Assembly: GCA_019059635.1 (NCBI GenBank)
Contig: JAGVRJ010000005.1
Location: forward strand, 2,294,001-2,358,000
Length of the DNA: 64,000 nucleotides
Origin: Proales similis
Taxonomy: Eukaryota > Rotifera > Eurotatoria > Ploima > Proalidae
Direction of reading: 5' to 3'
Positions 12,356 to 18,266 of the stretch are shown in pieces. The notes below the pieces were generated by a model. The model was given only the letters and a program-made list of their open reading frames with translations. It was not told where the DNA came from and did no database searches. How positions within the stretch are numbered: position 1 is the stretch's first letter; each line of letters opens with the position of its first letter. The translations under genes and the position numbers were made by a program.

Positions 12356-12642
12356 AAACAAATGATTCGCATAAAAGCAATGCGTTGAATAGGCTGAGTG
12401 ATTGCTGTTCACTGAATTGTATGCGCATTGCTTTATCAATAAATCGATGCTAAATTAAAAATCGTTCAATTCCCTTCTTTAATACAGTTGTTTAAATCTG
12501 CAACCAGAATAAGGCGATACAGCTCAGGCCAATGTTGATTAGTAGACATTTAAAAAAAAAAATTTTTAAAAGCAATTCTTGGTTTATTTTATGCCATAAG
12601 TGGCCATTTATTTCTGCCCAGGAATCTATTTTTCACTGGAAA

Positions 12643-15600
12643 TCAGAGAAATCTATTTTCCAGCTTTCCAACCCTCAGAGTGTGCTCGGCTAGTTTCTGC
12701 TTCATTTCGTTTATGGGCTGTTTGACCAGCTGGATTTCTTGATCGCTTTTATCCATGCGCGAGTTGATCAGATCGGAAAGTTTTTGAATGCTTTCATTCA
12801 GAGAATCCAAGCTGACCTCTTGCTTGCGTTGCTGGTCAAGGACATTTTGCTTTCGGTCTACGGCGGCTAGATCCAGAGCAATATTGCGACTTAGGCGCCA
12901 CAAACGAAATGCTCCTCTTAATGTTCGGTTTGAAATTTCTGATTTCTCGTTTCGCTTTCTTAGGCCTTTCCTCAAATACAAACTATAGTCAGTGATGAAA
13001 AACCGATGGGCACCGGTCAAGACGAGTAAGGCTCGCAGCCAACCCAGACTCCATCGATTTAATTGATCCCACAGTGCTCGCGAGTAGTAAATGTATTCCA
13101 GCTTGAGCTCAATGATCTTTACCTCAGCCTCTTGAAGCACCTGCTGCACTTCGTTAATAGCGATACCCACAAAAAGATTTAGCATGAAGATGGGCATTGT
13201 ATAAACAAATGCAAGCAGGAGCAAAAAGTTGCTCAAATTTGTCAAAGTCAGCTCGATGGCGTATAGGTTCGCATATGAAATGTCACCGATCATCATTGTG
13301 GATGCCTGCAATAGACTGAGCGGTGCAGAGAGAACAATGTTGAAAAAGTTCTCTTCACGGATAAGCTCATCTCTTGCTTGCACTCTAAAAGCAAACACAA
13401 AGCCCAGCAGAACAATGATCAGGATGGGCACCACCCTAACCGAGTTGCGCAGCACATTCTTGAACGCGTGAACGTAGAGGCCAAGCTTCCACACTGATAC
13501 CTTGTCAAGCATGACAAGGAAAAGAACATATGCGGCAAGAAGACAAATCGAGTAGAGCTGCACTGCCACATTTCGGTTCGAGCTTTTTTCAATCAGATAG
13601 ACGACAGTGATCATCAGCGGCAAATTAATCAGTTCGATTATATTCTTCCACGATCCGAAGTATTCGAGCGGTTTAAGCAGCATCTGAAATATCTCCAGGA
13701 TCCAGAACAAAAGAGCCAGTACGGTGATTACTGCGCCCAAGTTGTAGCTTAGAATGGGGCTTGTGCCAGAGAATGCAAACTGACTATTGACTGTGAACAG
13801 GATTAACAGTAAAAGGTAGAGGCTAAGCTTGATGTAATAAGCCAAGGCCAGATATTTCCACCTTTCTTTCACATAATGTTGAACTAATGCGCTTTGAATT
13901 ATATTGCCATTCTCAAGGTCAATCAGACGCTGAACATTAGAGGTAACAACCTTGGGCTCTCGTTTTTGTTGCTCTTGTTTGTGAAATTCATCCTCCTTGG
14001 GCCTTTCTTCCTTCGTTTGCTTTTCCATAAGAATAACGGTGGCAGATTGCAACTTGTTCAGTAGACTGCTGGGTTCCGCTTCTTTCTTATGTCCAGAACT
14101 CGCCTTTGCCCGATTTCGACTTTTCTCAAATAAGGGCTCGATGGCGTGAAAGAGATAAAATTGCTTCGAACCGACCTGAACGAACGCACGTTGAATTATT
14201 TGAAGAGTAGTCTCAACTGCTTGGTTTTGCTCTTCTGCTAGCTCGATGCACTCGGCCAACAAGCTACTCAAATTTAGATGATGAGAAAAGGCCCAGAGAA
14301 GTTGCTTGTTAAGATAGAATACGCGTTGATTGGCTCGTTTTTTCAATTTGTGCCTCCCGGTCGGCTCTGATTCGAGCTCAGCCTCTGATATTTTAACTTG
14401 ATCTAACCACCAGAGGCGAATTGCTCTTGGCACGTTTTGATTTTCATTAACCAAGGACGTGACGATTTCACAATATTTTTCAAACAGCACCACAAAATGC
14501 AGAAACTTTCCGTGCTGGAGAGCTCGAAGACAAAAGTCTTGGAAAAGAGAAAACTCGTCTGCGAAGCCTTGCTTCTGCTGCCTTCTCTTTTCTCCCAACA
14601 AAGCCTGCCCTCTTGCTTGATGGTCGTTTAAGTAGAAATCAAAGTTGAGTCGCAGTAACTTTTCCAGAATCGACGGCGACCGCATCTCGATTGCTTTGAA
14701 TATGGTGTCGACCGAAAAGTAAAAGCGTTCTTGGCCCCTCTCATCCTGGCCTTCTTGGATAGCCCATTCGTAAGCTTCAAATAGCTTGTTAAGCACTGCG
14801 TCTGAAATTAGTCTGTTTGGGACAATCAAGTCGAAGATTGATCGAAAGACCACAACATCCACCCAAGACTGGGTCTTTTTGACAAATTTCCTCTCAATAT
14901 GCTTTTCAAACTCGGCGACGAGCTCGTACTGGCTCTTAGCTTTCGTCCGGCTCTGTTCGCGGTTGGCTGCATGCTCGTTGAGCATAAAGAAAAAGAAAGC
15001 TACATCACAGGAATCGTGCGAGTCCACATTCAGATGCAGATGGTCCAAAGTGAACACCGATGCCACAACCAAGTCCGAGCTTATCTGATTGCCGAATGTT
15101 ATCTCTAGCTGTTGATGCTCTCGAAGTAGATTTCGGTCGACCGCACGCACAGGATTTAAATCCAAATTCAGTTGTCGGGTGGTTTTGCTTAGCGAACCGA
15201 ACGTGGACAAATCGACTCTTTCAATCTTGTTCGCACTGAGGTCGAGGTGCGACAGGCTGGTTAGCTTGGAGAAGGCACCCATGGAAAAGCGTTCGAACTG
15301 GTTGTGACTGAGAACGAGAGAGCCAAGACCCGTGAGGCCGTCGAATTGCACATTTGATAGCCGATTGTGCGATAGAACCAAAGTCTCCAAGTTAAAATTG
15401 TGCACAAATGTTTTCTCTTCCAAGTAGTTAATCGAATTGTGCGCCAAATTCAATTTTTCGAGCTGAACCAGTTTGCAAAATGCTTTCGGGTCGATCGAGC
15501 TGATCTCGTTCTTTTCCAAGCTGAGGAATTCGAGTCGAGTCAGTTTGTCTAGCGGCAGCGTTTCTTCGTCCACTGATTCAATCTGATTGAAATCCGCAAG

Positions 15601-17418
15601 CAGAATCCTCAAGTTCTTTAGATGAAAATTATCCAGTAACTTGCTCAGATGGTTTTGACTCAGTTCTAGCTCTTCAAGCGATTCGGGCAGATTGCCTACC
15701 GACAGTTCGCCGCTCAGATAATTGGAGCCCAGCGAGAGCCTTTTCAGACTAGGAGGCAAAGCAAACGGCAAACGCTTGTAATCTTGGCTTGGCAGGGAAC
15801 TTCCAAGGTTATTGCGGTTCAGATTGAGAACTTGAAGTGCCAGGCAAACACTGAATAGATCCGGCGCTATTCGAGACAATTTGTTGGACGAGAGATCCAA
15901 GGCAACCAAATGGCTCAAATGATCCAAGTTCGTGATATTGGCGAGCTGATTTCCACTCAGGTCGAGTTGCTCCAGTGAGCTGGGAAGATGAAATAACGCA
16001 TCTTCGCTCAAGTTGTTCATTGAGGCGTTGAGTACACGAAGCCGATTCAGTTTCGCCAGGCCGTTGAGAGCTTCGAGTTTGTTCCGGGCGATATTTAGCT
16101 CTGCTATTGACGAGGGAATTGAATAAAAAAGATTTTCAGATTGCTCGATTTGATTAGAAGACAAATCGAGTAGCTCAAGTCCGACAAGATGGTGAAGTGA
16201 GTCGACTTTTGAAAGCAGGTTGTCGGCGAGATTGAGCTTCTTTAGACTTGCCGGCAGTTGAGAGATAAGCTCGGCCACTCTGGCGCCTAGGCGGTTTGCC
16301 GAGAGATCGAGCACTTTCAAATTAGTAAACTTCTTTATGAGCCTTGTCTGGACCAGTTCGTTGCCATTTAAACAAAGCTCTCTGAGCTCAAAAGGAAGCT
16401 GAGGAAGAGGATTGTCGTCGATCGAACTCATTTGATTCGAACCGATGTCAATCTTCCTAAGCCTAATCAGATGTGCAATGTTCGCAAGAGCGCTGAGCTC
16501 GTTGTCGCTCAAGCAGAGTTCTTTGAGACTTGACGGCAGGTTAGCAAACGATATCTGTCCAGTGAATTCATTAGATGAAAGGTCTAAGCGCTCGAGATTG
16601 TTTGGAAATTCGAGTCCAACGTATTTCTCACTAACGGCTGCGCGGCCCCTTCCAATCTGGTTATTGGCAAGATTTAAATGGCCAAGTTTGGCTAGGTACA
16701 GAAACGCTCGCTTATCAATGTCACGCAGTAAATTGTTTGACAAATCCAACATCTGTAAATTGTCAAGTCTAGACAGACTGTACAATTCTGTGAACTGATT
16801 ACCATCCAAGTAGAGGCAAGTAAGCGATTTGGGAAGGTGAAAGAATAACTTGTCTTGGCAGATGCTGAGCTGATTTGAACCGAGGTCAAGTGATTGCAGG
16901 CTCACGTTGTCTGATATTCGCTCGACGTGAGTCAGTCCGCATTTGCGCAGCTTAAGCTCGGTCAAAGTCGAAGGCAATGAAGAGAATATTGCTGGCTGGA
17001 TGGGATTATGAGATAAGTCAAGTTGACGCAGATGAGGCAAACTTGACAAGCCGTCAATTTGAAAGAGGCGATTTCGGCTCAGAATTAAGCAAACTAGGGA
17101 GCCAGGCAGCCGATCGAAATTGACTTGTCCGTCGAGATGATTTCGAGCCAGTGAGAGCTTTTTAAGCTGAGTGGGAAGGCGAAAACTAAACGAGTTCTCC
17201 TTCAAAACTCGTCTAGACCTTCCAAGGAAATTCTTGTCGAGACACAGCTCGACCCAATCATCGCTCTCATTGTAGTCTTCAGGCCCAACATCCTCGAGGT
17301 GTCGACCGGACAAGTCTAGCTTGCGTTCGTACTCCTCTCCTGAGAACTTTGAACCAGAATCAGGTTCTTTGCTCGCTTCTATCGCTTTCGCTCTAATAAC
17401 GCTCTCTTTGAGATCCAT
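12643..17418 (-). CDS. Leucine-rich-repeat protein fused to a TRPA-like cation channel, single exon, 1591 aa
   Basis: The first Met is at 17418; an acceptor-like TTGATTGCAG just upstream suggests a 5' UTR intron. Residues ~35-765 form about 31 leucine-rich repeats of 22-26 aa (for example LQSLDLGSNQLS, LVALDLSSNKLSRI, LEKLNLAHNSIN). Residues ~770-1170 are helical without clear repeats. A six-helix channel follows: S1 (LSLYLLLLILF, ~1190), S2 (VLALLFWILEIF), S3, S4-S5, a pore with TMMIGDISY (~1370) and S6 ending MPIFMLNLFVGIAINEV. Pore and S6 match TRPA channels (family MMLGDINY and LMNLLIGLAVGD). The C-terminus (~1500-1591) is a predicted coiled coil, as expected for tetramer assembly. TRPA channels normally carry ankyrin repeats; I see none. 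No signal peptide precedes the LRRs, so they should be cytosolic. The gene lacks coding introns although its neighbours are split. Confidence 0.85.
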   Translation of the reverse strand: MDLKESVIRAKAIEASKEPDSGSKFSGEEYERKLDLSGRHLEDVGPEDYNESDDWVELCLDKNFLGRSRRVLKENSFSFRLPTQLKKLSLARNHLDGQVNFDRLPGSLVCLILSRNRLFQIDGLSSLPHLRQLDLSHNPIQPAIFSSLPSTLTELKLRKCGLTHVERISDNVSLQSLDLGSNQLSICQDKLFFHLPKSLTCLYLDGNQFTELYSLSRLDNLQMLDLSNNLLRDIDKRAFLYLAKLGHLNLANNQIGRGRAAVSEKYVGLEFPNNLERLDLSSNEFTGQISFANLPSSLKELCLSDNELSALANIAHLIRLRKIDIGSNQMSSIDDNPLPQLPFELRELCLNGNELVQTRLIKKFTNLKVLDLSANRLGARVAELISQLPASLKKLNLADNLLSKVDSLHHLVGLELLDLSSNQIEQSENLFYSIPSSIAELNIARNKLEALNGLAKLNRLRVLNASMNNLSEDALFHLPSSLEQLDLSGNQLANITNLDHLSHLVALDLSSNKLSRIAPDLFSVCLALQVLNLNRNNLGSSLPSQDYKRLPFALPPSLKRLSLGSNYLSGELSVGNLPESLEELELSQNHLSKLLDNFHLKNLRILLADFNQIESVDEETLPLDKLTRLEFLSLEKNEISSIDPKAFCKLVQLEKLNLAHNSINYLEEKTFVHNFNLETLVLSHNRLSNVQFDGLTGLGSLVLSHNQFERFSMGAFSKLTSLSHLDLSANKIERVDLSTFGSLSKTTRQLNLDLNPVRAVDRNLLREHQQLEITFGNQISSDLVVASVFTLDHLHLNVDSHDSCDVAFFFFMLNEHAANREQSRTKAKSQYELVAEFEKHIERKFVKKTQSWVDVVVFRSIFDLIVPNRLISDAVLNKLFEAYEWAIQEGQDERGQERFYFSVDTIFKAIEMRSPSILEKLLRLNFDFYLNDHQARGQALLGEKRRQQKQGFADEFSLFQDFCLRALQHGKFLHFVVLFEKYCEIVTSLVNENQNVPRAIRLWWLDQVKISEAELESEPTGRHKLKKRANQRVFYLNKQLLWAFSHHLNLSSLLAECIELAEEQNQAVETTLQIIQRAFVQVGSKQFYLFHAIEPLFEKSRNRAKASSGHKKEAEPSSLLNKLQSATVILMEKQTKEERPKEDEFHKQEQQKREPKVVTSNVQRLIDLENGNIIQSALVQHYVKERWKYLALAYYIKLSLYLLLLILFTVNSQFAFSGTSPILSYNLGAVITVLALLFWILEIFQMLLKPLEYFGSWKNIIELINLPLMITVVYLIEKSSNRNVAVQLYSICLLAAYVLFLVMLDKVSVWKLGLYVHAFKNVLRNSVRVVPILIIVLLGFVFAFRVQARDELIREENFFNIVLSAPLSLLQASTMMIGDISYANLYAIELTLTNLSNFLLLLAFVYTMPIFMLNLFVGIAINEVQQVLQEAEVKIIELKLEYIYYSRALWDQLNRWSLGWLRALLVLTGAHRFFITDYSLYLRKGLRKRNEKSEISNRTLRGAFRLWRLSRNIALDLAAVDRKQNVLDQQRKQEVSLDSLNESIQKLSDLINSRMDKSDQEIQLVKQPINEMKQKLAEHTLRVGKLENRFL

Positions 17419-17858
17419 TGCTGTCTGCAATCAACATGTCAGCTCGGTTCTAGACTATATTCACAAGAGAGTATATCATCATACCATATTCTCAATCAAA
17501 TTATTAATCACAATGCGAACATTCGTCCCTCAAACTTGTCAGAAATTGCACAACCATTATCGCACTCAATACGGACTTGACAATTAATTGCGTTCTAGAC
17601 GAGGCAAGCTATCGACGAAAACAAGAAAAATTCTTGAGCGTGTCGTCGTTCTATTTAAATTGAAAAATTGAAAGAGTTCCTCCCATTAACGAAATAGACA
17701 CAGGCGCTGATGCCACTCGACACTTTAATTAATTCACATGCAATGAGATCAAAATTAAAAGATACAGAGAGAGAGCAAAATATTCAAGAATTGAGCAAAT
17801 TTATTTCTAAGTAGAACTAAGTTTTATAGAAAGAATGTTGTTCGATTCATGCGTTAAG
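17419..17858. other. Intergenic upstream of the LRR-TRPA gene
   Basis: AT-rich spacer that should hold the promoter and a probable 5' UTR exon of the channel gene. No coding signal was found on either strand. Confidence 0.45.
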
Positions 17859-18266
17859 CTATTGAAAGGATCTGTAGAAAACGTGGTTGCCGATCCTTCT
17901 CACAACTTGGCAATTTTGAGTCCACGGTGGATAGCCTTCTTTGTCCGGGTTGTTGTAATGGTCACATCCTTCAGTAGGGTCGCGATTATTGGCCAGCTCT
18001 TGGCTAACGATATTTTTCGCCCTGTTGAATGCCGCTTAATCATCGATTTCAATCGTATGGCGCCCGTTCCAGCATTCAAACTGTCCTTGATGAAGACAGA
18101 CACTTTTGCGGCTCCTTCCGCCCCAATATTCACGGTTGAGTGCTGCTCGGTTCTTAATCACCCAGACCACCCATTTTTGGCCTATTTCAGGCTCACCGCG
18201 AGCTTCTGCGTACAATGTAGCCGCCAAAACAAGCTGCTCTGAATCGTTCCTCGATACAGAAGTCAT
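17859..18266 (-). pseudogene. SleB-type (Hydrolase_2) cell-wall hydrolase, interrupted by one in-frame stop
   Basis: Bacterial SleB-family enzymes cleave peptidoglycan. The first half (18266-18039) contains LYAEARGEPEIGQ, the family's catalytic-Glu motif, then NRAALN and HQGQFECWN, also typical. A TAA stop at 18036-18038 follows. The same frame then stays open to a TAG at 17859-17861 and encodes the rest of the family: DPTEGCDHYNNP, PPWTQNC and IGNHVFYR. No GT donor between the conserved FECWN and the stop allows it to be spliced out. There is no signal peptide. A recent nonsense mutation, a stop readthrough or a base error would each explain this. The family is bacterial and phage in the main, so transfer is likely. 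I give no restored sequence. Confidence 0.75.

Follow-up and report, generated by a model that had tools for sequence, protein, structure and literature searches.

A TRPA-derived channel gene with a leucine-rich repeat arm in the rotifer Proales similis

The reading frame in the window and its parts

The window considered here is a stretch of 64,000 nucleotides from the genome of the monogonont rotifer Proales similis. On its reverse strand, at positions 12643-17418, lies an uninterrupted open frame of 1591 codons that runs from ATG to stop; the first-pass annotation of this DNA had described a single unbroken frame, and both its extent and its start at 17418, the first ATG, are as given there. 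The same frame can be extended to a TTG (12643..17430, reverse strand, 1595 codons), immediately 5' of which stands an in-frame TGA; the residue numbers of the window protein used below are counted from the TTG at 17430. Each of the five remaining frames across 12643-17418 contains 70 to 93 stops, and the codon-position composition of the open frame is similar across its leucine-rich repeat (LRR), linker, channel and tail parts. Upstream of it, all three forms of the reading frame are rich in stops, but a short exon, even one encoding a signal peptide, may be located there. On the 3' side, an AATAAA (12607..12612) is found about 30 bases after the stop. Just upstream of the gene, at 17874-18197 on the same strand, there is a match to Hydrolase_2 (PF07486, SleB type; 65 bits, 2.2e-16), a cell-wall hydrolase-like sequence that is the sole one of its kind found in the genome and contains one in-frame TAA; perhaps, this is a gene of bacterial type that was transferred and has since been broken.

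The first half of the protein is an LRR array that occupies residues ~37-775 (15106..17322) and is matched by the Pfam families LRR_8 (1.5e-59) and LRR_4 (1.3e-55). A motif scan for the LxxLxLxxN core yielded 28 matches between residues 89 and 726, spaced by 21 to 30 residues, and degenerate copies can be discerned by eye at both ends of the array. The array thus has at least 28 repeats, and the degenerate end copies make the originally counted ~31 plausible. The array is composed of similar multi-repeat blocks, with three block comparisons at 4e-26, 2e-25 and 5e-17, values that are inflated by the repeats themselves; judging from this sequence pattern, it appears to have grown through block duplication. 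The individual repeat units of the array show an average identity of 25%. The matches to internalins and bacterial effectors reported by NCBIfam were far below the curated cut-offs and were set aside as generic LRR similarity.

The array is followed by a linker of ~390 residues (13951..15105) that is common to the other gene copies described below, as determined by pairwise matches, and then by a channel. The latter opens with a pre-S1 segment, VQHYVKERW (13858..13884), which aligns with the pre-S1 segment of TRPA1 that ends in W. The hydropathy profile shows six main peaks, at residues 1194, 1234, 1263, 1288, 1330 and 1403, the first four of which represent S1-S4 (13513..13851), as well as a weaker peak at residue 1363, where the pore helix is expected. 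Thus, the six hydrophobic segments reported initially are indeed present, together with the pore filter TMMIGDISY (13273..13299), which aligns with SMMLGDINY and SMMLGELDF of TRPA1, and with MLNLFVGIAINEV. By hydropathy, S5 maps to 13387..13443, and S6 with the helix after it (NLFVGIAINEVQQVLQEAEVKI) maps, by hydropathy and alignment, to 13114..13224. The cytosolic tail (12646..13023) contains a possible coiled coil that is not significant, given that 59 of 300 shuffled sequences score as high; for the tails of the C5, C7 and C4 copies introduced below, the corresponding counts are 39, 30 and 22 of 300.

Kinship with TRPA channels and the gene family in the genome

When the channel part of the window protein alone (350 aa) was compared with the PDB, with matches listed up to E = 1, all nine matches were to TRPA1, the best at 5.6e-12. 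A profile built from the channels of the four LRR-bearing copies gave 27 matches, of which the first nine were to TRPA1 (6.1e-19 to 3.6e-9), followed by 17 of the TRPV type and one to polycystin-2; TRPN structures were found neither among the nine nor among the 27. The initial description of the channel as TRPA-like is thereby borne out. In the alignment with TRPA1, the W before S1 is shared, the filter MMIGD stands beside MMLGD or MMLGE, and NLFVGIA is found in S6. At the acidic position of the filter, which is D or E in TRPA1, the window copy has D and the C7 copy has E, and the C5 and C4 copies have N; the presence of N in two of the four counts against a uniform function. The domain search of the full protein that had been proposed along with the first-pass annotation gave a divided outcome: the LRR families were recovered with Pfam, whereas no Ion_trans was reported by hmmscan, and the channel was found in a genome search with PF00520, where the window locus scored 33.9 bits (E 2.4e-7), above the cut-off of 25.

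The 15 contigs (32,716,893 bases) of the P. similis genome contain the combination of LRRs, linker and TRPA-type channel at four loci, namely, the window and single loci on C5, C7 and C4; the first-pass annotation had not recognised the gene as one of four. A search of the genome for the arthropod cuticle family Chitin_bind_4 gave no match, in agreement with a non-arthropod source, a weak result in that the control genomes gave no match either. The C5 copy (969.8-973.9 kb; L022 3268-7380) is an uninterrupted frame of 1370 codons, and the C7 copy (1958.1-1963.8 kb) is an uninterrupted frame of 1897 codons. In the C4 copy (1817.5-1821.0 kb; L024 2451-6005), the LRR part is interrupted by a single in-frame TAA, with a 302-codon LRR frame on one side and, on the other, a frame of 881 codons with the last LRRs, the linker and the channel; this copy may be decaying or may hold an unseen intron. 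Its tail consists of tandem repeats of the SRPSSEV type. In addition, there are four ankyrin-bearing TRPA genes, arranged in tandem at C2:2732.9-2753.4 kb. Genome searches with the four post-LRR parts and with one ankyrin-TRPA channel all returned the same eight channel loci and, apart from these, LRR parts, low-complexity tails and one fragment of 27 residues; the search works exon by exon, so that intron-rich family members could be missed. The fragment, at C13:68553-68633 (+), lies in a frame of 29 codons and matches the end of the C5 channel with 67% identity; it may be what is left of a further copy.

In a tree of 12 sequences (the four LRR channels, the four ankyrin TRPAs, two TRPA1 and two polycystin channels, that is, without TRPV, TRPN or TRPC), the LRR channels form one clade (100/100), and this clade joins the ankyrin TRPAs of P. 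similis itself (91/95); the ankyrin group is recovered at 80/89 and the two TRPA1 sequences pair at 88/83. The program flagged long branches in this tree, that of the C4 copy above all. A placement outside the TRP families, which would have spoken against the initial assignment, was looked for and not found, either in the PDB matches or in this tree. According to Pfam, the window protein and the other LRR copies carry LRR and no Ank, and the three ankyrin copies scanned, of the four, carry Ank without LRR. Together with the LRR clade, this mutual exclusivity supports the original proposal that the ankyrin repeats had been replaced by LRRs, and, as an ankyrin array was looked for and not found, we refer to these channels as TRPA-derived rather than as canonical TRPA.

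The linker of the window copy has no Pfam match up to E 10 and no match in the PDB, and it could not be aligned with TRPA1. Among the copies, linker comparisons gave 6e-17 for C5 with C7, 1.6e-9 for the window with C5, 4e-4 for the window with C7 and 0.006 for C5 with C4, and were not significant for the window with C4 (0.26) and for C7 with C4 (1.3); the junction at the end of the array, L..NP, is aligned in all four. Degenerate ankyrin hairpins, which seemed likely in the linker by eye, were rejected: an ankyrin profile from the same genome scored no higher against the linkers of the copies than against shuffled sequences, and hhalign, as well as Pfam up to E 10, came back empty. Three loci besides the window show the parts in the same order, and therefore the joining of LRRs to a channel is not a product of chance. 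A two-residue insertion near S4 is common to three of the four LRR copies. From the sequences, a single fusion followed by duplication would be the simplest account of the four LRR copies.

Several other features of these genes and of their relatives in the genome deserve mention. The LRR units of the C5 copy are very alike (19 units with a mean identity of 49%, up to 83%, and a strict 24-residue spacing), and this high likeness suggests recent turnover of the repeats. Recent gene conversion is suggested by two neighbouring ankyrin-TRPA genes on C2 (L025 920-4318 and 5764-9357): a block of 177 residues (529 identical bases) in their ankyrin parts is the same in both, while the identity of their channels is 59%. 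A region of C4 at ~1.93-2.21 Mb (L031, L032) contains ~15 near-full-length Ion_trans matches; one of these was examined and proved to be a polycystin, next to which lie two LRR genes whose starts are signal-peptide-like. On C3 (949.0-958.5 kb; L035), two places match PF00520 with an identical score in frames of 1104 codons; in the frame examined, which adjoins a REJ frame, GPS, PLAT, polycystin and PKD-channel domains were found, so that this is apparently a duplicated PKD1-like gene. Finally, an array of LRR genes is located on C1 at ~385-415 kb (L028-L030), mostly of 540-800 codons in one exon, with a shared C-terminal domain and, in most of those read, a signal-peptide-like start. An origin of the LRR arm from such secreted LRR genes (frames on C1, C4 and C15) was considered and rejected, the profile of their C-terminal domain (11 frames) having scored no higher against the linkers of the LRR-TRPA copies than against shuffles.

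The LRR arm: position, gating and alternative readings

Whether LRR and channel parts make up one protein, and on which side of the membrane the LRRs lie, bears on any functional interpretation. That an LRR gene and a channel gene just abut in one frame, or are expressed as separate transcripts, is scarcely credible: three loci keep all the parts in one uninterrupted frame and the fourth, on C4, keeps the last LRRs with the linker and the channel; moreover, the linker and the junction are conserved among the copies, and the codon-position composition is alike along the window frame. An extracellular position of the LRRs, as in polycystin-1, would involve an undetected signal peptide or an extra membrane span. 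Such a position would fit the pure 24-residue LRRs of the C5 and C7 copies, as repeats of this length are mostly extracellular in animals, and it could draw on the short upstream exon considered above and on the short hydrophobic stretches located after the LRRs, such as FSIFLFYLSSI in C7. Against it, the N-termini of the four LRR copies, as read from single frames, reach hydropathy values of 0.46, 0.95, 0.78 and 0.15, and none of the four starts is judged signal-peptide-like by this measure; for comparison, 13 frames were taken from LRR gene arrays elsewhere in the genome, and 10 of these have values of 2.25 to 3.28, the other three being one that lacks a Met within the first 80 residues and two without a hydrophobic start. 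Likewise, the 19-residue stretch of highest hydropathy in each linker scores 1.41, 1.26, 1.19 and 0.82 (window, C5, C7 and C4, respectively), as against 1.35 to 2.77 for the peaks taken as S1-S6 in the same four copies, so that no extra span is evident in the linker sequences. The domains polycystin, PLAT, GPS and REJ, as well as PKD_channel, are also absent from the LRR copies, and the same library finds them in the polycystin frames of this genome. We consider the extracellular arrangement very improbable. With six spans, a cytosolic N-terminus pairs with a cytosolic tail and, since neither a signal peptide nor an extra span is evident, the LRRs are most likely, as predicted from hydropathy, cytosolic like the ankyrin arm of TRPA1.

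The account that we consider probable is that these genes encode a TRPA-derived cation channel whose cytosolic solenoid of ankyrin repeats was swapped once for one of LRRs. A new linker of ~390 residues would connect the LRR solenoid with the channel, and the fused gene would then have been duplicated, giving rise to the four dispersed copies. Four subunits would form a non-selective, calcium-permeable pore with the LRR arms lying in the cytosol; a protein partner would bind the LRR arm, and the signal would be passed through the linker to the gate, in the same way as the ankyrin arm and the coupling region of TRPA1 pass signals to the gate. By this analogy, the arm and the linker should bear on both gating and assembly. 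A more specific version, in which these are lineage-specific cation channels opened by a cytosolic, NLR-like LRR arm, such that the recognition of a protein or a danger signal is wired in one polypeptide to calcium entry, with the array length free to evolve, appears unlikely. Alternatively, with molecule and topology unchanged, the LRR arm could act mechanically, as a tether or spacer that connects the channel to the cytoskeleton or a cilium and through which force would open the pore; such a role has been proposed for the long array of ankyrin repeats in TRPN/NOMPC. The array length indeed differs strongly between the copies (24, 17 and 33 strict cores in the window, C5 and C7, respectively), and growth by block duplication suits a spring or a spacer more than a fixed binding site. 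Nevertheless, LRR arrays are usually binding surfaces, and for this reason we slightly favour partner-dependent gating over a force tether, which we regard as rather unlikely.

The contribution of the long N-terminal solenoids of TRP channels to gating is an open question, and it is this question that the LRR-bearing TRPAs address. Here, an LRR arm appears to have taken the place of the unrelated ankyrin arm, while four ankyrin TRPAs persist in the same animal, and a whole sensory solenoid has apparently been exchanged in an animal channel family. This suggests that the sensing arm of a TRPA-type channel can be exchanged for one of another kind. With such a swap, it becomes possible to ask which contributions of the arm are required, be it coupling, assembly or the binding of partners, and which are dispensable, and the existence of copies with different numbers of repeats makes the length of the arm testable.

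Comparison with known channels

In the literature searched, we found no description of an LRR-bearing TRPA channel, nor a published protein with the same order of domains, in line with the earlier statement that no described animal TRP channel was known to have this architecture; any subscription surveys of rotifer TRP channels and the P. similis genome paper (10.1016/j.cbd.2021.100861) lay outside that search. In the main texts of four papers on TRP evolution (PMC4494053, PMC13402157, PMC2753570, PMC13143021), the terms leucine or leucine-rich and LRR are absent. Relatives outside this genome were found neither in protein collections nor in viral or bacterial and archaeal contigs, the animal content of these collections being uncontrolled. 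The claim of novelty thus rests on limited searching, because the outside searches lacked a control for animals and the scope of the literature was limited.

Among channels with an N-terminal solenoid or with LRRs, the closest in channel sequence are TRPA1 and the ankyrin TRPAs, including the four in the same genome. The LRR copies share with them the pre-S1 segment with its W, the filter region, S6 and the following helix, the layout of six spans with a pore loop between S5 and S6 (by hydropathy and the aligned filter), and a solenoid ahead of S1, the cytosolic position of which is a prediction in the present case; they differ in having an LRR solenoid instead of an ankyrin one, a long new linker and, in two copies, N in the filter. 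Polycystin-1 (TRPP/PKD1), as portrayed in PMC12799467, has LRRs N-terminal to a TRP-superfamily membrane part. The order of parts is alike in the LRR-TRPA proteins, but these show no signal peptide by hydropathy, and their channel is closest to TRPA. TRPN/NOMPC resembles the LRR-TRPA proteins in combining a very long N-terminal solenoid with a TRP channel, although that solenoid is made of ankyrin repeats and not of LRRs. The LRRC8 volume-regulated channels, which are anion channels, also have a cytosolic LRR domain; in LRRC8, however, the LRRs are C-terminal to four spans, whereas in the LRR-TRPA proteins they are N-terminal to six.
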